From assembly GCF_020520425.1 (NCBI RefSeq), contig NC_079488.1, positions 88,021,285 through 88,085,284 on the forward strand: a stretch of DNA of 64,000 nt, written 5' to 3'. This document shows positions 23,042-64,000 of this stretch, piece by piece. How positions within the stretch are numbered: the stretch's first letter is position 1; every line of letters begins with the position of its first letter. Made by a program: the position numbers and the translations under genes. This stretch comes from Spinacia oleracea (lineage: Eukaryota; Streptophyta; Magnoliopsida; Caryophyllales; Amaranthaceae). Below the pieces are notes generated by a model that did not search any database, had not been told where the DNA came from, and was given only the letters and a program-made list of their open reading frames with translations.

Positions 23042-23665
23042 TTAGTCCATAAAACCAGTTTGGCGCCACACGGCGTTACGGACTTGCCTCAGATCTCTCC
23101 CTTTCAGCGTCCTTCCCACGCCTTCTAGCACCGACGACGTCGATTTCAGCTTCATCGCGACGATCTCGTGCGGCGGGAGCATCTCCTCTTCTTCCTCATT
23201 TTCTCTCTCCTCGGAAAATCCGTCCAATTGACGGAATTTCTTCGGTTTCCGCATCATCGACGGCACATTCATCGGAGCAGAGTGCTGGAACTTTCTGCAT
23301 GGAACGGATTGAGCCAAATCACCGGTGATAATTCGTTGAGGAGTCTTAGGGATCGTGCGGAACGGAGTCGGCGGCGGCGGAGGGGCGAGGCGGTTTCCGC
23401 AGTCGTCAGGCAGGGCGGCAAGGATGCCTGATTTCACGGAACAGCGAAACGCTAAGGTACGGCGAGATTCCGGTGAGATAGAGGAATGAATTGAATCGGA
23501 CGAGTCGGTGAGTCCGCCTCCTCCGGTCCAGAAGAGGTCCGCCTCGGTCAGCTCATCGCCGGAATGGTCGGCGGAGGAAGCGTTGGTGAGAGAGAATGCG
23601 GCTAAGAAGCGATCGGAGGAAGTGGTTTTCCGGTGACGGTGGTAATTAACGCCGTTAGTCTCCAT
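23042..23665 (-). CDS. S40-family senescence regulator (DUF584)
   Basis: This intronless gene encodes 207 residues. The C-terminal 50 residues carry the family hallmark: LPPHEIVAMKLKS, then SVLEGVGRTLKGRDL and the ending RNAVWRQTGF. The N-terminal part has a Ser-rich stretch, ESRRTLAF-like sequence, a PPPPPTPFRTIPKTP proline segment and an acidic run ENEEEEE just before the conserved block. S40 proteins are small plant-specific, mostly nuclear proteins linked to leaf senescence and stress; their biochemical activity is not established. The start at 23665 is the first ATG after a minus-strand TATA box (TATAAATT, about 23735-23743). Length and intronless structure fit the family. The frame is intact. 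The exact paralogue (S40-5/6-like or other) is not determined. Confidence 0.9.
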   Translation of the reverse strand: METNGVNYHRHRKTTSSDRFLAAFSLTNASSADHSGDELTEADLFWTGGGGLTDSSDSIHSSISPESRRTLAFRCSVKSGILAALPDDCGNRLAPPPPPTPFRTIPKTPQRIITGDLAQSVPCRKFQHSAPMNVPSMMRKPKKFRQLDGFSEERENEEEEEMLPPHEIVAMKLKSTSSVLEGVGRTLKGRDLRQVRNAVWRQTGFMD

Positions 23666-50693: not shown

Positions 50694-51340
50694 TTATTGA
50701 ACCCAAAAGGAATGAATGGGGTGGGTGGTCCGCAGGAATGCCAAGTGCATCTGTTTCACTTGTAAAGTATTTTCAGATTTTATTTTTTTTCATTTCTGTG
50801 TTGTAGCAACATCTCAGATTATCTGGAGATTCTAAACTCTAACTTGTAAAACACCCAGATGAATTGCAAACTCAGGAATGGTGAATTATGATGTGTTGTA
50901 TTGTGCACATAGAGAAGACTAACTAACTTGTATGTGCGTCTATGTAACATTTGTCAAAATTGTGTATTGGTTCAACTTATGCACCATAAATTTCAGGATT
51001 AAATGATTGTTTTGTGGCTCATTTCTTGACCAATAAACTCCCTAACACAATTTGGCATATTAAGTCGATAACTTTATCAATAATTGATGATTTTCAGCCA
51101 TTAACTTATTTTGAAAGAGAGTAAATAACCTCACAAAATAATTATCTTTCTCAGTTTGCAAAATTCGAAACTTAAAAAGTAGTTGTTGACGAAAATCGCC
51201 CTGGTTACCAAACTGGCATACATTAGACAGTGACCACCAAAATCCTATCCTCTTCAACTATTCAACCTCACATAATATTTTCCAACCCAAAAAAACCAAA
51301 AGAAAAAAAAAAGAAGGGCTCCCAACTTGTGAAGAAGCTA
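50694..51340. other. Intergenic: SNX1 3' region and next gene's promoter
   Basis: The 647 bp between the SNX1 stop and the next start hold the SNX1 3' untranslated region (AT-rich) and the upstream region of the plastid-protein gene. No TATA box or repeat stands out. Confidence 0.4.
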
Positions 51341-52099
51341 ATGGCTTCAATAACTGGTAGACAACTAATCAATCCTCAAATAACATTACAGTCTAACAAA
51401 TCATACTTTTCAGGTCATCACAGCATTTCAACTTCATTCTCTTTCAATGGGAATCACAATGACATTCAGTTTCCTACGTTTTATTCCGGCCAACGGAATA
51501 TGCCGGTTGCGGTAAAATCGTCACCTGGAAAAGATGGTGGCATTGCCGGGGTTGACGAAGAGGGTGTATCTCTTGGAACCATGAAGTTGCCTTCAGACAC
51601 TGATATTTCAAGGTTTGAGACTTTACTCTTTCAGGTAATCCTCTTTTTTGATTATAAGTGTAGCTTCATTAGATTATTAATACCAAGTAGTATAGTTTTA
51701 TGAATTAATTGAGGATCGATGTTGATGTGCAGTGGGCTAATAGTCTGAACCAAGGAGCTCAGATGCCACTTCCTGTTCCATTGAAGGTCAGTTATTGTGT
51801 TTTGTAGTCTCTTAATGTTTGTTGTAAAAACATGTCTAATTTGATATGTTTGTAAGGAACAGGTGGATAAGATTGAAGGAGGGGTAAGGCTAGGGTTTGT
51901 GGAAATCGACGATGGGAAGACAGAAACTAAAGTGTACATTGATTGTCAAGTAGTTAGAGGAAGCAACAACTCTGGTGCTCCAGTATTTGTAGCAACTAGA
52001 AAAGGACTCCTCAAAAACAAGGTGCCTCTTGGTGAGCCTAGAATTATGAAGAGCCTCCTTGCTGCTCTCAAGACATCAGTTGAAATCGCCAGAGCTTGA
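51341..52099 (+). CDS. Predicted plastid protein of unknown function (DUF7148-like)
   Basis: Three exons (51341-51634, 51733-51786, 51863-52099) with GT-AG introns join in frame to 194 residues. The first 60-65 residues are Ser/Asn-rich with few acidic residues (MASITGRQL start), like a chloroplast transit peptide. The conserved part begins SLGTMKLPSDTDISRFETLL, followed by WANSLNQGAQMPLPVPLKVD, GGVRLGFVEIDDGKTE and GEPRIMKSLLAALKTSVEIA. I recognise this pattern from a conserved plant family annotated as a domain of unknown function (DUF7148, from recall). The start at 51341 is chosen because upstream codons are Lys-rich and unlike a transit peptide. The frame is intact. No activity is proposed. 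Confidence 0.82.
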
Positions 52100-53605: not shown

Positions 53606-53792
53606 AAGGTGGTACACCAGAGTAAAAGTGTGTAAAAGTTACACCGGTAAATGTAAAAGTTATCAAATTTTTTAGTGATAAATTTTTTCGCTTGAATAAA
53701 AATCTATCGCTTCAAAATTACTATTAATATATAAAGTTAATTATGTAACCCTTTAAAATATTTATCCATTAAAATAAAATAAAACAAAATAT

Positions 53793-54046
53793 GGTTTATA
53801 CACCCGGGTGCACAATGCTCACTGTGCACCCTGTTTTACAAAAAACATATAGTTCAAATACAAAGAACATATTGTTCATACCCAAAGAACATATAGTCAA
53901 TGAACATATAGTTCAAATCCATAGAATATATAGTTTAAAAATTTCACTAGTACATGTACATTGAAATCGTTCTCAATGTTCATTAGATTTTCAATAAATG
54001 TTCAATAGGGTGCACAATGAGCACTGTGCACCCGAGTGTATAATCC
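53793..54046. mobile_element. MITE with GTGCACAATGCTCA-type ends
   Basis: The left end (GGTTTATACACCCGGGTGCAC...) and right end (...GTGCACCCGAGTGTATAATCC) are inverted repeats of about 40 bp. The interior has several AGAACATATAGTTCA units. The core GTGCACAATGCTCACTGTGC resembles the ends of the MITE at 41380. Confidence 0.75.
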
Positions 54047-54087
54047 AAATTGCGAAAATAAAAAATTATATTACACAATATAAAAAT

Positions 54088-54228
54088 CGGATTTTTCACC
54101 AAATGCCCCTGAGGTTTACTTTAATGCACCAAATACCCCTAAACTTTTCAAAATGCACCAAACACCCCTGACGTATGCAATAATATCATTAAATGCCCTT
54201 TTGTCTGACGGACGTTAACCCTCCGTTA
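54088..54228. repeat. Left terminal inverted repeat
   Basis: The repeat contains three direct copies of CACCAAATRCCCCT-type motifs at 54097, 54127 and 54156, about 30 bp apart. Two more lie just inside, at 54255 and 54285. These are candidate transposase-binding sites. Confidence 0.92.
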
Positions 54229-54382
54229 GGCAGTTAGTTCGTTAAAACATAATGCACCGAATACCCCTGAGGTTTGGTAAAAAGCACCAAATACCCCTGA
54301 GGTTTGGTAATTTTTTTTCCAAAAACTAGCCGTTGAATTTGAATAATATAGCCGTTGCAGTCACCCATACACTAATTTCCCT

Positions 54383-54391
54383 TATATATAC
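54383..54391 (+). promoter_or_regulatory. TATA box of the GRF-zinc-finger gene
   Basis: TATATATA lies about 155 bp inside the left inverted repeat and 420 bp before the start codon. It predicts a transcript starting near 54415 and a leader of about 400 nt. Confidence 0.5.
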
Positions 54392-54394
54392 CAT

Positions 54395-54810
54395 ACCCAA
54401 CAACAACACCACACTGCCCTAAACCCCAATCCCCCCCAACTGCACAAACAGTCCACCCCAAACCCCCACCTGCACAACCACAACACTGCAACAGGAGCAC
54501 CAACAACAAGCAGAACCCTGCAACACCAGCAGCAGCAACAGCAAGAACAAACAACAACAGCAGCAGCAGCAACAGCAAGAATAACAAGACAGCAGAGCAA
54601 CAAGAACAAACACCAATAGCAGCAGCAGCAAGGACTTCTACACAGCACAACACCAGCAGCAAGAACAACACAGCAACAACAAGAATAGACAACACCAGCA
54701 GCAAGAACAACACAACACAACAACAACAATAACAAACAACAGAAGCAGCAACAACAGAAGCATCAACAACAGAAGCAGCAACAACAGAGCAGCAAGAACA
54801 ACAACACAGC
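54395..54810 (+). other. Long CAA/CAG-rich, ATG-free leader
   Basis: About 400 bp made of CAACAA, CAGCAG and CAACAGAAGCAG units, with no ATG on the plus strand before 54811. (CAA)n leaders are known to favour translation in plants (for example the TMV omega leader). An alternative is that the tract was once coding, giving a Gln/Asn-rich N-terminus. The complementary strand shows Cys/Val/Leu-rich frames (54372-54926) that are artefacts of the repeats. Confidence 0.55.
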
Positions 54811-55188
54811 ATGAGTTCTTGTTCCAATACATCATCATCCAATCTGTTTTCATACATACTTGTTCCAAACAAATGTTGTCCTATTTGTTCCAAAAAATGT
54901 GCAATAAAAAGCTCCGAGACATCCAAAAATCCACAGAGGCTATATTACAAGTGTGATCCTTGTAACCATTTTATGTGGTGCAAAGGAAGTGTTCTACACC
55001 AAAATCAACAACACCAACAGCAACAGAGCAATATAGAGTATGAGGGAACATCGGAAGACAACGACAATATAAGTGACGAACTGAAGAAACTGAAGAAAAG
55101 AGTGAAAGAGCTCAAAAAATTCCAAGCTGCAGCAATTAAAATAGGAATTGTAATGTTTTTGTGTCTAATGTTTGTAGTAAAGAAGTAA
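54811..55188 (+). CDS. GRF-type zinc finger protein with coiled coil and C-terminal membrane anchor
   Basis: This intronless gene encodes 125 residues. Residues 22-58 form a GRF-type zinc finger: CPICSKK, then a NPQRLYYKC block and FMW, with C23, C26, C48 and C51 as likely zinc ligands. GRF fingers bind single-stranded or structured nucleic acid in other proteins (topoisomerase 3, APE2, NEIL3). A Gln-rich linker (about 63-72) and an acidic stretch lead to a coiled coil (ELKKLKKRVKELKKF, about 90-104), then a hydrophobic segment (IKIGIVMFLCLMFVV, 109-123) ending in KK, like a tail anchor. It is convergent with the transposase gene inside the same element. The first ATG after the leader was chosen as start. 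Its role in transposition is unproven; it could be a captured host gene. Confidence 0.75.
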   Translation: MSSCSNTSSSNLFSYILVPNKCCPICSKKCAIKSSETSKNPQRLYYKCDPCNHFMWCKGSVLHQNQQHQQQQSNIEYEGTSEDNDNISDELKKLKKRVKELKKFQAAAIKIGIVMFLCLMFVVKK

Positions 55189-55421
55189 TCAAGACAAACA
55201 ATGATGGTTGTAATGGCACGAGCACATGAATTTCATTTATCAATAATATGCAAGTCTTTGAACTCGTAACTGAAATAGTTTGTTTCCAAAATAAACCGAA
55301 CATCAAGTTGTGGGTAGCTTTACAAAAAAATGCCAAAATGTGCCACAACCTAAGTTGTTTTTCAAAATAAACCTAAGCTTTAAAACAGAAATACTAAACT
55401 GAATCCTAAGCTTACTTCTAG

Positions 55422-58400
55422 TTATGCAGCTTTGGACTTCTTGCTGCTCGATGCATTAGATGTTGGAGCCTTCCTCTTCCTAGCACCAGATGTTGATGCA
55501 CCAGCAGAACCAGCAGCAGCTGCAGCAGATTCTTTCCTCTGTTTTGCAGTGGAACCTCCTTTACAGGTTCTTGAGTTATGCCCAATTTGCTTGCATTTCC
55601 CACACTTGACAGTGGTGTTTCTTTTCCCCCTCTTCTTCTCATGAGCACCTCTTCTTCTCTGCTTGGCTGGTCTGCCAGCTGCCCTTCTCATTAGTGGGGG
55701 AAGAATCCTAGGTAGCTCAAATGTAGGCCACTGTGTTGAGTCAGGCATGGGGTGAATATGCTCTGAGTATGTGAGCTTATAGGCTGCCCCTTTGAAGTAA
55801 GGAGAAACAAAATCTGTAGGATTGAGTCTTTGATGGTATATTACCCTAATAGCATGCTTGCAAGGTATACCACACCCTTGCCATTTCCCACAACCACAAA
55901 CTCTAGCAGCAAGCCTAATAGGGAACTTCACATGACCATCTAAAACCTCAAATTCACCCCCCCCAGCATTAGTTGCATAACAGAACCTCGAGTCAGCACT
56001 CCTCTCTTCAAGCTCCTTAGTAGCATATGGCGTCAATTGATCGGGTCCAATGTCAACAGCTTTATCAAATCTGGCCCCGATCTTCGTCATGCACCAAGAC
56101 CTTATTTCTAACATAACAGAATACAATAATTGGCATCACACATTTTAATGCAAAATAAATACCCGACTCGGAAACTTGAACACATACCCGACTCGGACAC
56201 TTGAACACAAACCCGACTCGGACACTTGAATACAAACCTAAATAAATAAGTTCCAATGACACAAAAATAGGATAAAATGTAAAGGATTACCTTCAAGAAG
56301 TGACAAAACAGGAAGATCCCTAAAGGGTTTGGTACACGCGTTGAAGGATTCCACAAAGTTGGTGGTGTTGTGATCACAAGTGACCCCAACATCAAACTTG
56401 TGTCTGGACCACTGTTCAGGCACTTTGTCAAGATATCCCACTGCTTCTGGGATGAGTTTGCCAATCTTTTCCATGGCTTTGTTGAAGACATATGGATTGT
56501 ATGCATCAGCAGCAACCCAGAACAAGTCATGGAAGGCTGTGCCACTGTATCCAGCTTGTCTGCAGTTGGTATACAGATGCTGAGCACAGACCCTCCTGAC
56601 TGCTTTGGGGAAAACATCATACAAAGCAGATTCTACTCCCTGCATAACACAATTCCAAGTTTCAATAACTAGGGAAGTGAACCAGAAAACTGAAAAAAAT
56701 ATAAACAATACTACAAATAATAAAAACCAAGAAAGGGAGGAGTAATTACCCTCATTCTGTCACTAATAAAAGTCCAGTCATCCCTCTGGCACCCATGTTG
56801 AACAAACAAAGCCTTCAAACTTCTGAAAAAATAGGACCATGTGTCCATACTCTCCGTACTCACAATGCTATAGGCTAATGGAAAAATCTCATTATTCCCA
56901 TCGATAGCAACTGCAGTGAGGAGAATTCCCTTATAGTATCCACTCAAATGTGCACCATCAATGCCTATGATAGGCCTACAACCTCTTAAGAAACCCCTAA
57001 CTTGTGCAGCAAAGGAGAAAAAGCAAGCCTTGAAACGGGGTGTCACGTTACCAGAATCTGCAGTCCAAGTGACCAAGGCATAACTCCCAGGATTGGTAGA
57101 TTTGATCATTTCAGCATAGGATGGTAAAAGGGCATATGACTCATCAAAACCTCCATAAATTTGCTGCCTCCCGAGGCTTCTCACCTTGTACATCAACCTC
57201 TGTTTCACTTGTACCCTATAAATCCCCAATGCCTTTCTTTGAAGTGTCTTAATTGGGATTTCTGGATTTGCTTCAATGTCAGGAAGTAGTTTGGTGCATA
57301 GCCACTGAGATGTCACCATGGGATTCTCCTCAAGTCTCCCACAAGACTTGTGCTCACTGACAAGAGTTTTAATGGCCCAACTGACCCCATCCAACAACAC
57401 ACAGGCATGGATCCTCCAATTGCATGACTCAACCAGACACATTGCAGTGAATCTGGTTGTATCAGCCTTTTCAACACTCACAGCAAATCCCTCTTGAATA
57501 CAGAAGTCTCTGAAGACCTCCATGAAGTGTGTCTTGCTTTGGAATATCATCCATGGTTGCAACTTGATAGTCCCCCATGGCATGCTTCCCACAACTTTCC
57601 CATTTGCATACAAATTATCCAGCTTATTACTCCCATCTAAATGATCCTCAAAACTTCTCTCAGAAATTACCTCCTTAAGAACATCTTGTTCTTCATCTTC
57701 TTCAATTTCTTCGTCAATGAAATCGTCGGAGTTGAAACCAGTTTCACTATCACTCTCACTCTCCTCAAAATTTTCATCATCACTCTCATCATCCCATTGC
57801 TCCTCTTCCTCCACATTGTATGCAGTGGGTTTCCTCACCCTTGAACCAGCAGGCCTTCCCCCCCTCTTCTTAGGAACAAACTCACCCGTCTTCTTAGCAT
57901 GACTTCTGGAAATTCTGAAACCCCTCCCTTTGTTTAACTCAGCCCTGTTAGGAGGGGGTGTCTGATCTGGCTGGTGTTCTGTTTGATGTTGTTGCTGCTG
58001 TTCTGTGGGTTGGTGTTGCTGTTGTTCTGTTTGTTGTTGTTGTTGATGTTCTGTTTGTTGTTGTTGCTGATGTTCTTTCTGTTGTTGTTGTTGCTGTGGT
58101 TGTGTCTGTGGTGAGGTTGGTGGTGGTGAGGGACTTCTTGGTGGTGGTGATGGATTATTTGGTGGTGGTGAGGGACTTCTTGGTGGTGGTGATGGATTAT
58201 TTGGTGGTGGTGAGGGCTCTCTTGGTGGTGATGGAACATTTGGTGGTGGTGAGGGCTCTCTTGGTGGTGGTGAAGGCTCTTTTTGTGTATTTGGTGGTTG
58301 GGAACCTCCCGGGGAAAAGCAGTCAGCATGTTGTGAGCTGTAAACACGTACGTACTCTACGCTTAAATCCTCAACATCATACACAGGCACCTCAACTGCC

Positions 58401-58858
58401 ACTGTGTTTGCCAATTGCTCCTCCAAATCCCTTTGAATCTCAGCCTCCCTTTCTAACCTTCTCCTTTCCTCTTCCCTCTCCCTCTCAAACTCCTCAGCTT
58501 TCCTTCTAAGTTCTGCAGCCTTCCTTTCCTTCCTATCCTTCCTTTTCTTAACTGCAGTCCTAAATTGGATTGAAGTTTCCTTCTCATTTGCCTTCTCTAT
58601 CCATATTTCCACAGTATCTGTGCGCTTAAATAAACCCCACATGCCCATCAAACCAACATCATTCAACAATTCTACTCTTTTATTCGTACTAGGATTAACA
58701 TAAAACAATCTAAATAAATCGGGAATCAGAACATCTTGCTTAATAGAATCATCAAACAAGTCATCAACCAAATCCATGTAGTTCGTTTCATCAGTATCTT
58801 GTACCCTCACATCAAAATTCCGATCATTATAATGACATAACAACCAAATTGCGACCAT
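55422..58858 (-). CDS. MuDR-type transposase of the Mutator-like element
   Basis: Three coding exons on the minus strand (58858-56750, 56639-56291, 56107-55422) join in frame to about 1047 residues, with GT-AG introns. The start is the ATG at 58858, one base after an acceptor; the 5' leader is spliced (59083 to 58859), so an upstream ATG at 58885 lies in the intron. Order: PB1-like N-terminus (1-95), charged coiled coil (about 105-150), Pro-rich PSPPP repeats and Gln/His-rich tract (about 190-310), acidic region, MuDR DNA-binding domain (about 424-510), MULE catalytic domain with GIDGAHL (D634) and ISDRMRG (D700), SWIM finger (C890, C892, C902, H904), CCHC knuckle (C988, C991, H996, C1001) and a basic tail. 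No stop or frameshift was seen. Confidence 0.9.
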
Positions 58859-59083
58859 CCTATACAAACAATAAACACAACACAAAAATTCAAATTAATG
58901 AACTAAATCATTAGGCAAAACAACAAAGCACAACCAGACACTATGTTTTACCATTAACACCCCAAAATTCAAGTTAACCCATCTCATGGAAAAATCACGA
59001 TTTTAGCAAAACCCTAACCCTAATCAAAGCAAAATTCGCAAAAAATAGCACCAAGAACAAGAAACGAATTGAGTGAACTAACC
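58859..59083 (-). other. 5' leader intron of the transposase gene
   Basis: On the minus strand, GTCAAG is followed by GTTAGTTC (donor at 59082) and the acceptor TTGTATAG lies just before GATGG at 58859. The placement removes the spurious upstream ATG at 58885. Confidence 0.6.
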
Positions 59084-59436
59084 TTGACACAATTTTGATG
59101 AAGTTGAAGCCACAAATTCCAGTCCTTTGCTCTCCTTGCACCCACTTTTGTAGGACTCGCGAAAACTGCAGATTTTTGGACCAAATTGTCGATCTTTTCG
59201 TGGGGATTTACTTCGACTAACTATTGCGAGTTGTTTTACACAAATCCCAGCGAATTTCGATCTTTCTCTCTCTTTGGTTTGGTACTCAAGTGCTCTCTAA
59301 TGGTGTAAGAGAACAGAGAGAAATGTCGAGGAAGAAGTTGGGAAGTTAGGTTTTGAATTTTTTTTTTTTTTTTTTTTTTTTCTTTTTTGATATGGCGCCA
59401 GAAAGGACAAGTAAGGGCAACAAGGTAAAAACATGG

Positions 59437-59577
59437 TAACGGAGGGTTAACGTCCGTCAGACAAAAGGGCATTTAATGATATTATTGCATACGTCAGGGG
59501 TGTTTGGTGCATTTTGAAAAGTTTAGGGGTATTTGGTGCATTAAAGTAAACCTGAGGGGCATTTGGTGAAAAATCCG
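59437..59577. repeat. Right terminal inverted repeat
   Basis: It mirrors 54088-54228 over 141 bp. It drives transcription towards the transposase gene; a long T run (59360-59382) lies just inside. Confidence 0.92.
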
Positions 59578-59694
59578 TATAAAAATTAATCAAATCACGT
59601 AAAAAGTTAGCAAAAATAAAATGGATAAAAGTTAACGTAAGCGGGTTTACTAAAGTTGTAATTATTCATATGAAGACAAGAATTTTGATTCCTC

Positions 59695-59702
59695 TTATAA
59701 AA
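59695..59702 (+). promoter_or_regulatory. TATA box of the B3 gene
   Basis: TATAAAAG lies 130 bp before the chosen start codon and only 118 bp after the end of the Mutator-like element. It excludes the more upstream ATG at 59670 as start. Confidence 0.65.
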
Positions 59703-59831
59703 GGTTTCCAATTCTCAAACACCAAACAAATTTGGCGCTTTTCTCCCTCTGTATTCCAAATTGCAGTTAATTCTGTTAAACAACACTTCCTAAAACTTGA
59801 ACGAAGAATCCCCTGTTTTCTCCAAGAAACA

Positions 59832-60479
59832 ATGGAGCAAAAAACACCTTCCACTTCCAAAAACCCAGACGAAGTCAATGAAATTACTGATGCTGCACTG
59901 ATTCTTTTATCTATGAAGCATTCGAAACTCGATCGCGAAACCGCCTTCAACCTAGAAGCAACGAAAAATTCGTTTCTTGGACATCCGATTAAAACGTCAA
60001 TTCATGGTAATGAAATCAAAAACCGATTTGTTGGTGTTGAAAATAATAGACAACGAGCAGTACTTCCTGGTCCTTCAATGGTGGAGAGTTTGCAAGATAT
60101 AATAGGAAAACAAGGTGGATCAGTGGAGAAAGTTGTATCAAAAAGCGACTTGAATAGTGATATTCAAAGGCTGGTTTTGGACAGGGATAAGGCCAAATTG
60201 ATGTTCGAACCGTTTTTTACAAAGAGAGAGGAAATAATCTTTAAAGAAATTGATAAGCTTATGGTTAGTGTTTATGATATTGAAGGACGAAAGTATGAGA
60301 TGTTCTATAAAATGTCGAGAAACACCAAATTCCCTACTCTTTGTGGTTGCGAATGGAACAAATTTTGTCAAGATCATGGATTAAAAGCTGGTGATTTTGT
60401 TAAACTTTTGATTTTTCGCCATGCTAAGACTCAACAATTTGCGACATTCGGCATAAGGAAAAGGTCACGCGCCACCTAA
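59832..60479 (+). CDS. B3-domain protein (DUF313-type)
   Basis: An intronless gene of 215 residues from the ATG at 59832, chosen because a TATA box sits at 59695; the same frame is open from 59670. The N-terminal half is Lys/Asn-rich and unremarkable (ITDAALILLSMKHSK). The C-terminal 110 residues resemble the B3-like fold of the plant DUF313/At2g31720-type family: KSDLNSDIQRLVLDRDKAK, then VSVYDIEGRKYEMFYKM and a closing WNKFCQDHGLKAGDFVKLLI. B3 domains bind DNA in the nucleus; many members of this group are fast-evolving and unstudied. The Lys/Arg-rich end (IRKRSRAT) could help nuclear entry. The frame is intact. The subfamily is from recall. Confidence 0.82.
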   Translation: MEQKTPSTSKNPDEVNEITDAALILLSMKHSKLDRETAFNLEATKNSFLGHPIKTSIHGNEIKNRFVGVENNRQRAVLPGPSMVESLQDIIGKQGGSVEKVVSKSDLNSDIQRLVLDRDKAKLMFEPFFTKREEIIFKEIDKLMVSVYDIEGRKYEMFYKMSRNTKFPTLCGCEWNKFCQDHGLKAGDFVKLLIFRHAKTQQFATFGIRKRSRAT

Positions 60480-62173: not shown

Positions 62174-64000
62174 TTAGAAAAATACTACATCACTTTTATT
62201 ATTAGGAAGGGTAGTAGTAACAAACATGAGTTCTTTTGTGATTTCGTTTGACCCATTGAACTTAGATTTCCTAAGATGGGTGTCAAGCACCATTTTTCTA
62301 CAAAGGCCTTTGGTGAGAGGATCTGCAATATTCCTCTCGGACTTTACATACTCGAGTGATATTACATTTTTTCTGATCAGATCTCTAACTATAGCATGCC
62401 TTAAGCGAATATGCCTTCTCTTTCCATTATAGGCTTGATTTTTCGCTACCCCAATTGCAGCTTGTGAGTCACAATGCATTGAAACTGATGGAGCTGGTTT
62501 CCCCCACAATGGAATATCAGCAAGCAAACTCCTTATCCATTCAGCTTCCTGTCCTGCCAATTCTAAAGCAATAAACTCAGATTCCATAGTAGATTTGGCA
62601 ATGCAAGTTTTTTTAGATGATTTCCATGATATAGCTCCTCCAGCAAGAGTAAAAACATAGCCACTAGTAGATTGAATTTCATCACTATCCGACACCCAAT
62701 TGGCATCACAATATCCCTCAAGAACACAAGGTGCTCTATGATAATGTAAACCCCAATTGATAGTGCCTTTCAAATACTTCAATAATCTAATCAATGCATT
62801 CCAGTGATCTTGATTAGGATTATGAGTATATCTACTCAATCTACTAACCGCATATGCTATATCAGGTCTAGTGTAGTTCATCAAAAACATCAAACTTCCA
62901 ATAATCTTGGCATATTGTTCCTGTGATACAGAATTACCTTTGTTCTTTTTCAAATGAATACTAGAATCATATGGGGTTTGCACTGGAGTGCAGTCAAATT
63001 GACCAAATTTCTTTAAAATCTTTTCAATATAATGAGATTGGTTTAAAGACATCCCATATGAAGTTCTAGTAATCTTTATGCCAAGAATCACATCTGCCTC
63101 TCCTAAATCCTTCATCTCAAAACAAGAATTTAGGAAAGCCTTGGTTTCGTTCACTATGTCTATATTGGTACCAAAAATTAACATGTCATCCACGTATAGA
63201 CATATGAAAACGCAACCAAGTTTTGAAAGTTTGGAATACACACAAGCATCAGAATCATTTACCTGAAAGCCATTAGAAATAATAGTTTGATGAAATTTGT
63301 CATACCATTGTTTAGGTGCTTGTTTTAATCCATACAATGATCTAATGAGCCTGCATACCTTATCTTCCTGTCCAGGACAACACATCCCTCTGGTTGCTTC
63401 ATATAAATTTCTTCATTCAAATCACCATTCAAAAAAGCAGTTTTTACATCCATTTGATGCACAACAAGATCATGAATGGATGCAAGTGCAATTAAGACTC
63501 TAATGGTGGCAACTTTAGTGACAGGAGAATATGTATCAAAATAGTCTACACCATGCTTTTGACGATGACCTCCTACCACAAGCCTAGCTTTATACTTAAT
63601 CAAGGATCCTTTTGGAGTATGTTTCTTAGTAAAAATCCACTTACTACATAAGGGCTTGCAACCTCTAGGAAGATCAGACAAAATCCAAGTGTTATTACTC
63701 ATGATAGACTCAATTTCACTATTTATGGCCTCTAACCAAAAATTTGAATCAATTGACCTCATAGCTTCTCCATAGGATCTAGGGTTTTCTTCTAAGAGAA
63801 ATGCATCAACTTCTTGCTCGTCTAATAACTCTTTCTCAATTAGGAAGGCAGTAATAAAATCGGGTCCAAAGCTAGACTCAGTTCTAGTTCTTTTACTCCT
63901 TTTAGGTTCTAGAGTCTCACTAGATGATGCAATGTCATGATGCACAATGGAAGGTGGAGATGCAACAGGTAAGCATGCTTGAACATTAACTTTCATAGGA
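62174..64000 (-). pseudogene. Copia pol, reverse transcriptase and RNase H part, one frameshift
   Basis: Two overlapping minus-strand frames cover the integrase-RT linker onwards. The upstream one (63996-63325, open at the window edge) has KWIFTKKHTPKG, KARLVVGGHRQ, YSPVTKVATIR and QMDVKTAFLNGDL. The downstream one (to 62174) has [17 protein letters not shown], the catalytic [28 protein letters not shown], then RNase H motifs ([34 protein letters not shown]) and ADPLTKGL. The frames meet near 63378-63385, where one base appears lost, so this copy cannot make a full polyprotein. The rest is outside the window. Lineage within Copia is not assigned. Confidence 0.9.

Follow-up and report, generated by a model that had tools for sequence, protein, structure and literature searches.

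We analysed a 64-kb stretch of the spinach (Spinacia oleracea) genome, called the window below (C2:88021285-88085284), in which a Mutator-like element (MULE) of 5,490 bp occupies positions 54088-59577. The element is autonomous-looking, belongs to the terminal inverted repeat (TIR) type and has multiplied recently. Besides its transposase gene it carries a small gene for a protein with a GRF zinc finger, which the original prediction had taken for an accessory gene. Our results point the same way: the GRF gene is probably a genuine accessory gene of an autonomous-looking MULE clade, present there since before the spinach families split. Judged by its substitution pattern, it is under purifying selection as strong as that on the transposase.

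Genes for GRF proteins that are 47-50% identical to that of the window are found in other Mutator-like families. A genome search with the GRF relative P0078 reported 154 matches (150 of 1,408 candidates were scored), and at ten places P0078 is present at 100%, in full length and with an open frame. We fetched five of the relatives' loci (L048-L052). In all five, a convergent Mutator transposase, complete or partial, lies beside the GRF gene, together with a Mutator-like left end, and the GRF gene holds the same place as in the window. Related elements thus do carry the gene, in line with the accessory role proposed earlier. L048, L050 and L052 are complete elements of about 5.06-5.08 kb. Their ends of about 144 bp are 94%, 91% and 97% alike, they are flanked by perfect duplications (TTTATGTTA, TATTTTTTA and TTTAATCTA, respectively), and a P0009-type transposase is convergent to the GRF gene in each. 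The L052 transposase matches P0009 at 91-100% over four blocks, and a 301-codon core of transposase exon 1 is free of stops in L048 and L050. In L049 the transposase is internally deleted and both ends are recognisable; L051 consists of a left end, the GRF gene and a 3' part of the transposase, and its right end was not found in the fetched locus.

The ratio of nonsynonymous to synonymous rates (dN/dS) between families was calculated with our own script by the Nei-Gojobori method with Jukes-Cantor correction, and the counts were compared by Fisher tests. Purifying selection on the GRF gene is evident at this level. Between L048 and L050, dN is 0.056 and dS 0.650 (dN/dS 0.09, p 6e-14); the pair L048-L049 gives 0.08 (p 2e-15) and the closer pair L049-L050 0.31 (dS 0.124, p 0.035). 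The window GRF yields 0.14, 0.24 and 0.19 against L048, L049 and L050, at a dS of 1.6-2.9 that is near saturation (p 1e-10 against L048 and 1e-9 against L050). For the transposase, the L048-L050 comparison gives 0.12 in exon 2 (dS 0.480) and 0.11 in the exon 1 core (dS 0.867); comparisons of the window transposase with the other families were saturated. The equal constraint and similar dS of the two genes fit a joint descent of two needed genes.

The element itself has many close copies. We searched the genome (894,210,420 bases in 242 contigs) with the left, GRF-side end (213 bases), as had been suggested. Of the 1,022 candidates, 40 were scored, and the match was 99-100% for every one of these, so that at least 40 dispersed left ends of this kind exist. 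From each of the 39 places outside the window 6 kb were fetched, and both ends were present in 34 of them. A perfect 9-bp duplication flanks 33 of these 34 (the exception is L012), and the duplicated sequence differs among most of the 33 places, a sign that the element has been mobile. In 34/39 copies the GRF frame of 125 codons is intact, and 18 of them encode a protein identical to that of the window; the frame is thus far from being missing or broken in all other copies, which would have spoken for a one-off capture. Among the near-full-length copies (at least 5,300 bp, n = 23), the transposase is uninterrupted in 10 and the GRF frame intact in 21. The two-ended copies shorter than 5,000 bp keep the GRF frame in 7 of 10 cases, a share that the GRF-side query biases upward. 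Seven copies (L022, L023, L029, L031, L036, L042 and L045) have deleted parts of the transposase and retained the GRF frame and both ends, mostly with perfect duplications; they are possible GRF-only derivatives.

Within this recent burst no constraint is visible on either gene. Relative to the window sequence, the GRF copies show 22 nonsynonymous, 7 synonymous and 1 stop change, where the mutation spectrum predicts 21.5, 6.9 and 1.5. For the transposase, which served as control, the corresponding numbers are 106, 35 and 5 (expected 103.8, 33.7 and 8.5), with an N/S ratio of 0.98; the P/Q repeat at 57934-58347 and alignment blocks under 95% identity were omitted. Both genes drift neutrally after insertion. 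The dN/dS below 1 that had been proposed as a check between copies was not found among the recent ones for GRF, nor for the transposase, and the signal lies between families. Since the control is equally neutral, the within-burst test is uninformative about the GRF gene, and we rejected it as a discriminating test. A chance or one-off GRF ORF was ruled out by the database relatives, the 34/39 intact copies and the between-family dN/dS. When the 39 copies are compared with the window, the number of substitutions per base is 0.008 and 0.014 in the ends, 0.008 in the GRF leader and about 0.002 in the genes; the excess in ends and leader may reflect misaligned repeats.

The features of the element are as follows:

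54079..54087, no strand: left target-site duplication TATAAAAAT, 9/9 identical to the right copy
54088..54228, plus strand: left terminal inverted repeat of 141 bp; it contains CACCAAA-type sub-repeats at three positions, 54097, 54127 and 54156
54254..54310, plus strand: two extra terminal sub-repeats directly internal to the left end, with a 30-bp period
54383..54389, plus strand: TATA-box-like TATATAT, candidate GRF promoter
54397..54810, plus strand: presumed GRF 5' leader (start chosen by us), CAA/CAG-rich, 16 T in 414 bases, ATG-free
54811..55188, plus strand: GRF gene, single exon, 125 aa; zinc ribbon at about residues 22-58, variable linker, helix 84-124, hydrophobic C-terminal stretch 107-123
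55422..56107, minus strand: transposase exon 3, SWIM finger and CCHC knuckle
56291..56639, minus strand: transposase exon 2, CAQHL and NFVESFN motifs
56750..58858, minus strand: transposase exon 1, N-terminal region, P/Q-rich repeats, MuDR DNA-binding domain, GIDGAHL and ISDRM motifs
58860..59082, minus strand: likely 5' UTR (untranslated region) intron predicted from the sequence, GTTAGTTC...TTGTATAG, 223 nt, directly ahead of the transposase ATG
59437..59577, minus strand: right terminal inverted repeat, 141 bp
59578..59586, no strand: right target-site duplication TATAAAAAT

The long ends and the perfect 9-bp target duplication of the original prediction were confirmed: 140 of the 141 inverted nucleotides are identical, and the sole mismatch (G/C) is at position 24. 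On the plus strand of the window, TATAAAAAT occurs at the two duplication sites alone; the minus strand has 6 more occurrences. Both ends contain CACCAAATACCCCT-type sub-repeats. The G+C content of the element is 0.417 vs 0.308 in the 500-base flanks. MULEs are characterised by terminal inverted repeats that are commonly long, and the duplication falls within the range of 8-11 bp given for their target sites (PMC6446971, available to us in part).

The transposase is encoded on the minus strand by three exons separated by two GT-AG introns. Its 1,047 aa contain zero internal stops, and an annotated spinach protein, P0003, spans both splice junctions identically (6 substitutions, 32 gap columns), which bears out the spliced, stop-free frame proposed before. 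Three Pfam domains score above their cut-offs, namely the MULE catalytic domain PF10551 (41.1 bits, cut-off 27.6), the MuDR DNA-binding domain PF03108 (33.1, cut-off 25.0) and the SWIM zinc finger (30.9, cut-off 19.6), which identifies the protein as a MULE transposase. The motifs follow in the order GIDGAHL, ISDRMRG, CAQHL, NFVESFN and CCHC knuckle; the first four are those to which we take the catalytic roles to belong.

A search in which the 7,993 candidates with the most shared words were scored yielded 74 transposase relatives. The closest of these is P0003, with 96% identity over residues 420-1000. In a tree of 30 rows (the window and 29 of these relatives), the window transposase falls into a clade of 10 rows from spinach, beet, quinoa and Bienertia, with a support of 100/100. 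Nine Bienertia sinuspersici relatives (P0006, P0015, P0023, P0028, P0031, P0032, P0034, P0036 and P0037) are Mutator transposases that public records call, for example, 'Filamentous hemagglutinin' or 'Titin-like protein'; these are mislabelled transposons. One gene model among the 74 relatives, P0076 of Vigna mungo, contains a GRF motif (Pfam 23.6 bits) on the strand of the transposase, and this count is a lower bound, since the motif scan overlooked at least one true member (P0078). The GRF finger of P0076 is joined near the position of the first intron of the window transposase. The fusion is perhaps a mis-join of the gene model, and P0076 possibly represents a GRF-bearing element in a legume.

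The coordinates and strands of the two ORFs confirm that the GRF gene is convergent to the transposase. The TATA-like box lies 428 bp ahead of the GRF ATG. The lack of ATG in the leader was shared by 5.6% of 2,000 shuffles, and the RNA fold of the leader is unremarkable (z -0.65). The CAA/CAG tracts of the leader (54397-54810) and of the Q-rich repeat of the transposase (57970-58103) are on opposite strands and 72-78% complementary over 41-47 nt. Downstream of the GRF gene we found AATAAT at 55242 and AATAAA at 55290 and 55366. No such AATAAA-type signal was found for the transposase on the minus strand of 54888-55421, and its transcript may therefore extend into the GRF gene.

Protein databases contain 8 GRF relatives, not counting the window's own part, among them two from quinoa, LOC110731058 and LOC110722190, and one from beet, LOC125495123 (E 1e-18 to 1e-45 for the 8). 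They are 42-49% identical to the window protein. P0002 contributed to the query profile, and its stand-alone E value is 2e-17. Two relatives are incomplete: P0002 is without the N-terminal half and the gene model P0083 without the tail. Pfam GRF is found at E 0.1 or better in 6 of the 9 family members scanned. The core of the GRF finger is, we assume, CxCG ... NPxR..Y..C ... C ... F.W; the window protein has CCPIC in place of CxCG. Cys48 and Cys57 are conserved in 9/9 sequences, Cys23 in all 8 with letters there, Cys26 in 7/8 and Cys51 in 7/9. Over 7 relatives (P0083 omitted), mean identity is 65% in the finger vs 17% in the linker. The hydrophobic stretch 107-123 stops two residues short of the C-terminus, and by hydropathy a hydrophobic 17-mer lies 0-2 residues from the C-terminus in 8/9 sequences, including the window. 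By its C-terminal helix the GRF protein looks like a tail-anchored membrane protein. The AlphaFold model shows three short strands and the helix 84-124, with a pLDDT of 82-95 in blocks from residue 91. A Foldseek search with this model gave 71 matches up to E 10 and 0 at 0.001, and a comparison of the sequence with solved structures gave 15 matches (best E 0.42). No relative was confirmed in scans of viral and bacterial/archaeal contigs, and tblastn of phage records gave no match.

Purifying selection and the same layout across families suggest that the GRF protein helps the element persist. It would be a helper encoded by the element. In this picture the ends with their sub-repeats would be the target of the transposase, the GRF finger would bind nucleic acid and the coiled coil would pair subunits, while the C-terminal hydrophobic stretch would anchor the protein in the endoplasmic reticulum (ER) or nuclear envelope. 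The anchored protein could then assist transposition or shield the expression of the element, and so fill a role similar to MURB's or VANC's with a different type of protein. This route through finger binding, coiled-coil pairing and membrane anchoring is guessed from the architecture, and we regard it as possible, leaning to doubtful. If true, this would to our knowledge be the first Mutator accessory protein by which a DNA transposon of plants is tied to a membrane, for instance the nuclear envelope. More broadly, a clade of chenopod MULEs (in spinach, and by its relatives in quinoa and beet) may have its own membrane-anchored GRF accessory protein, inherited together with the transposase and representing a further kind beside MURB and VANC; we propose this tentatively, as a little short of an even call.

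Several observations weigh against the GRF gene as a conserved accessory gene of this clade. The frame is lost or broken in 5/39 copies: in L015 codon 14 is a stop, L016 misses the 5' part, L033 and L038 retain the first 39 and 111 bases, respectively, and L035 has no GRF. Among the recent copies its N/S ratio is a neutral 1.01. Stops occur in many P0078 matches, mostly in those at 79-86%, and no such match is among the fetched loci; the latter were a non-random choice from plus-coordinate rows with open frames. Quinoa and beet are represented here by GRF protein relatives, and elements were seen in neither. No annotated spinach protein of this GRF family was found in protein searches based on shared 5-residue words, and expression is therefore unsupported. 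The Pfam GRF match of the window protein (residues 22-58, 18.0 bits) is below the curated cut-off of 25.9, as is every other Zn_ribbon_GRF score shown, among them those of P0077 (20.6 bits) and P0080 (18.0). Cys51 is replaced by Tyr in P0082 and P0083, and P0083 is without the second Cys of CxC. The structure model is weak overall (mean pLDDT 61.9), and its best Foldseek matches are RNA-polymerase zinc ribbons at E 0.6. As a separate observation, the GRF subfamilies at 79-86% to P0078 are large and share identical stops (e.g. G000:C1:41257946-41258335); they may be non-autonomous elements whose dead GRF frame was multiplied along with them.

The gene could instead be a passenger, a host GRF gene that an ancestor captured in the manner of a Pack-MULE and that is carried without benefit to the element. 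In a wild rice, TNR12/MuDR is described as having captured a GRF gene (PMC3503983, available in part), and such a history would agree with the neutral drift among recent copies and with the 7/10 short two-ended copies that keep GRF despite lost transposase parts, a pattern favoured by the GRF-side query. However, a useless passenger would lose its frame over the distances between families, where dN/dS is 0.08-0.09 over hundreds of substitution sites and as low as in the transposase, and the gene has an identical place and orientation in 5/5 other loci. This explanation is thus strongly disfavoured, and we consider it very improbable. Slightly less credit still is due to a benefit for the host, with the elements spreading a useful plant GRF family and the transposon copies arising as a by-product. 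In quinoa and beet the annotation treats the relatives as ordinary genes, and spinach has an annotated zf-GRF gene, SOV5g022430, that may be related to the family (PMC11844115, partial text). Yet all five fetched loci of the relatives are elements, and no close annotated spinach parent was found among proteins sharing 5-residue words.

A different question is whether a gene selected within the element must act at a membrane. The hydrophobic helix might pack on a partner such as the transposase, with the finger guiding the complex to DNA or RNA. A nuclear protein that partners a transposase requires no membrane, and the membrane location was deduced from hydropathy alone. On the other hand, the uncharged C-terminal stretch of 17-20 residues in 8/9 sequences, with a Lys end in 7, resembles a tail anchor. 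We rate the membrane-free version as rather unlikely.

In maize MuDR, mudrA and mudrB are arranged convergently. The spinach element resembles MuDR (mudrA + mudrB; PMC6446971, in the parts available) in its MuDR-type transposase, long terminal inverted repeats, 9-bp duplication and second ORF. It differs in that its second gene encodes a GRF zinc ribbon with a hydrophobic C-terminus. With Arabidopsis VANDAL21/Hiun (VANA, VANB, VANC; PMC10398659, partial text) it shares the presence of non-transposase genes in a MULE. VANC counteracts silencing according to the same text. The terminal repeats of VANDALs are degenerate, in contrast to those of 141-144 bp in the spinach elements, and no VANC-like protein was recognised among the ORFs examined.

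Second ORFs are on record from a survey of 1,631 MULEs, in which mudrB, vanB/vanC and antisense PMD are named and the function of mudrB is described as unknown (PMC6446971). According to Table 1 of this source, antisense PMD motifs or ORFs occur in most members of several plant MULE groups, so the original prediction that most plant MULEs carry only the transposase was too strong. The PMD-bearing plant MULEs (groups 47-50) likewise combine SWIM/CCHC transposases with an extra domain or ORF, often antisense; spinach has GRF instead of PMD, and 'GRF' appears 0 times in the main text of PMC6446971. GLU-U7, a GRF-domain gene of an Oryza Pack-MULE (PMC3503983), likewise lies within a MuDR-type element. 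In the accessible text it is read as a capture, whereas in spinach the GRF gene is kept under selection beside the transposase in several families. Published precedents thus exist both for a rice Pack-MULE with a GRF gene and for extra ORFs in antisense orientation in plant MULEs. No GRF accessory gene of an autonomous MULE was found in the literature searched, whose coverage excludes most subscription journals.

For plant DNA transposons, the choice between silencing and activity can be determined by accessory proteins such as VANC, few of which have been characterised. The spinach GRF protein adds a conserved candidate that belongs to another protein type and to a recently multiplied family of a crop, and its role is directly testable by deletion. 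In a claim wider than the data presented here, such elements would be a possible origin for the multicopy small GRF genes of plant genomes.

A scan of 53800-59900 against Rfam gave no match. A MITE-like inverted-repeat element at 53788-54051, with 53-nt arms that are 85% complementary, ends 36 bp to the left of the MULE. On the minus strand, 62174-63996 encode a Copia-type reverse transcriptase (RVT_2) in two frames, truncated by the edge of the window. Host genes in the window are represented by an ORF for a senescence regulator and by the beginning of a DUF7148 gene (23042-23665 and 51230-51703). A B3-domain gene follows the MULE (window 59587-60479); its likely ATG, at 59832, is 245 bp from the MULE, which lies upstream. 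Mutator elements favour the 5' ends of genes, and the insertion agrees with this preference.

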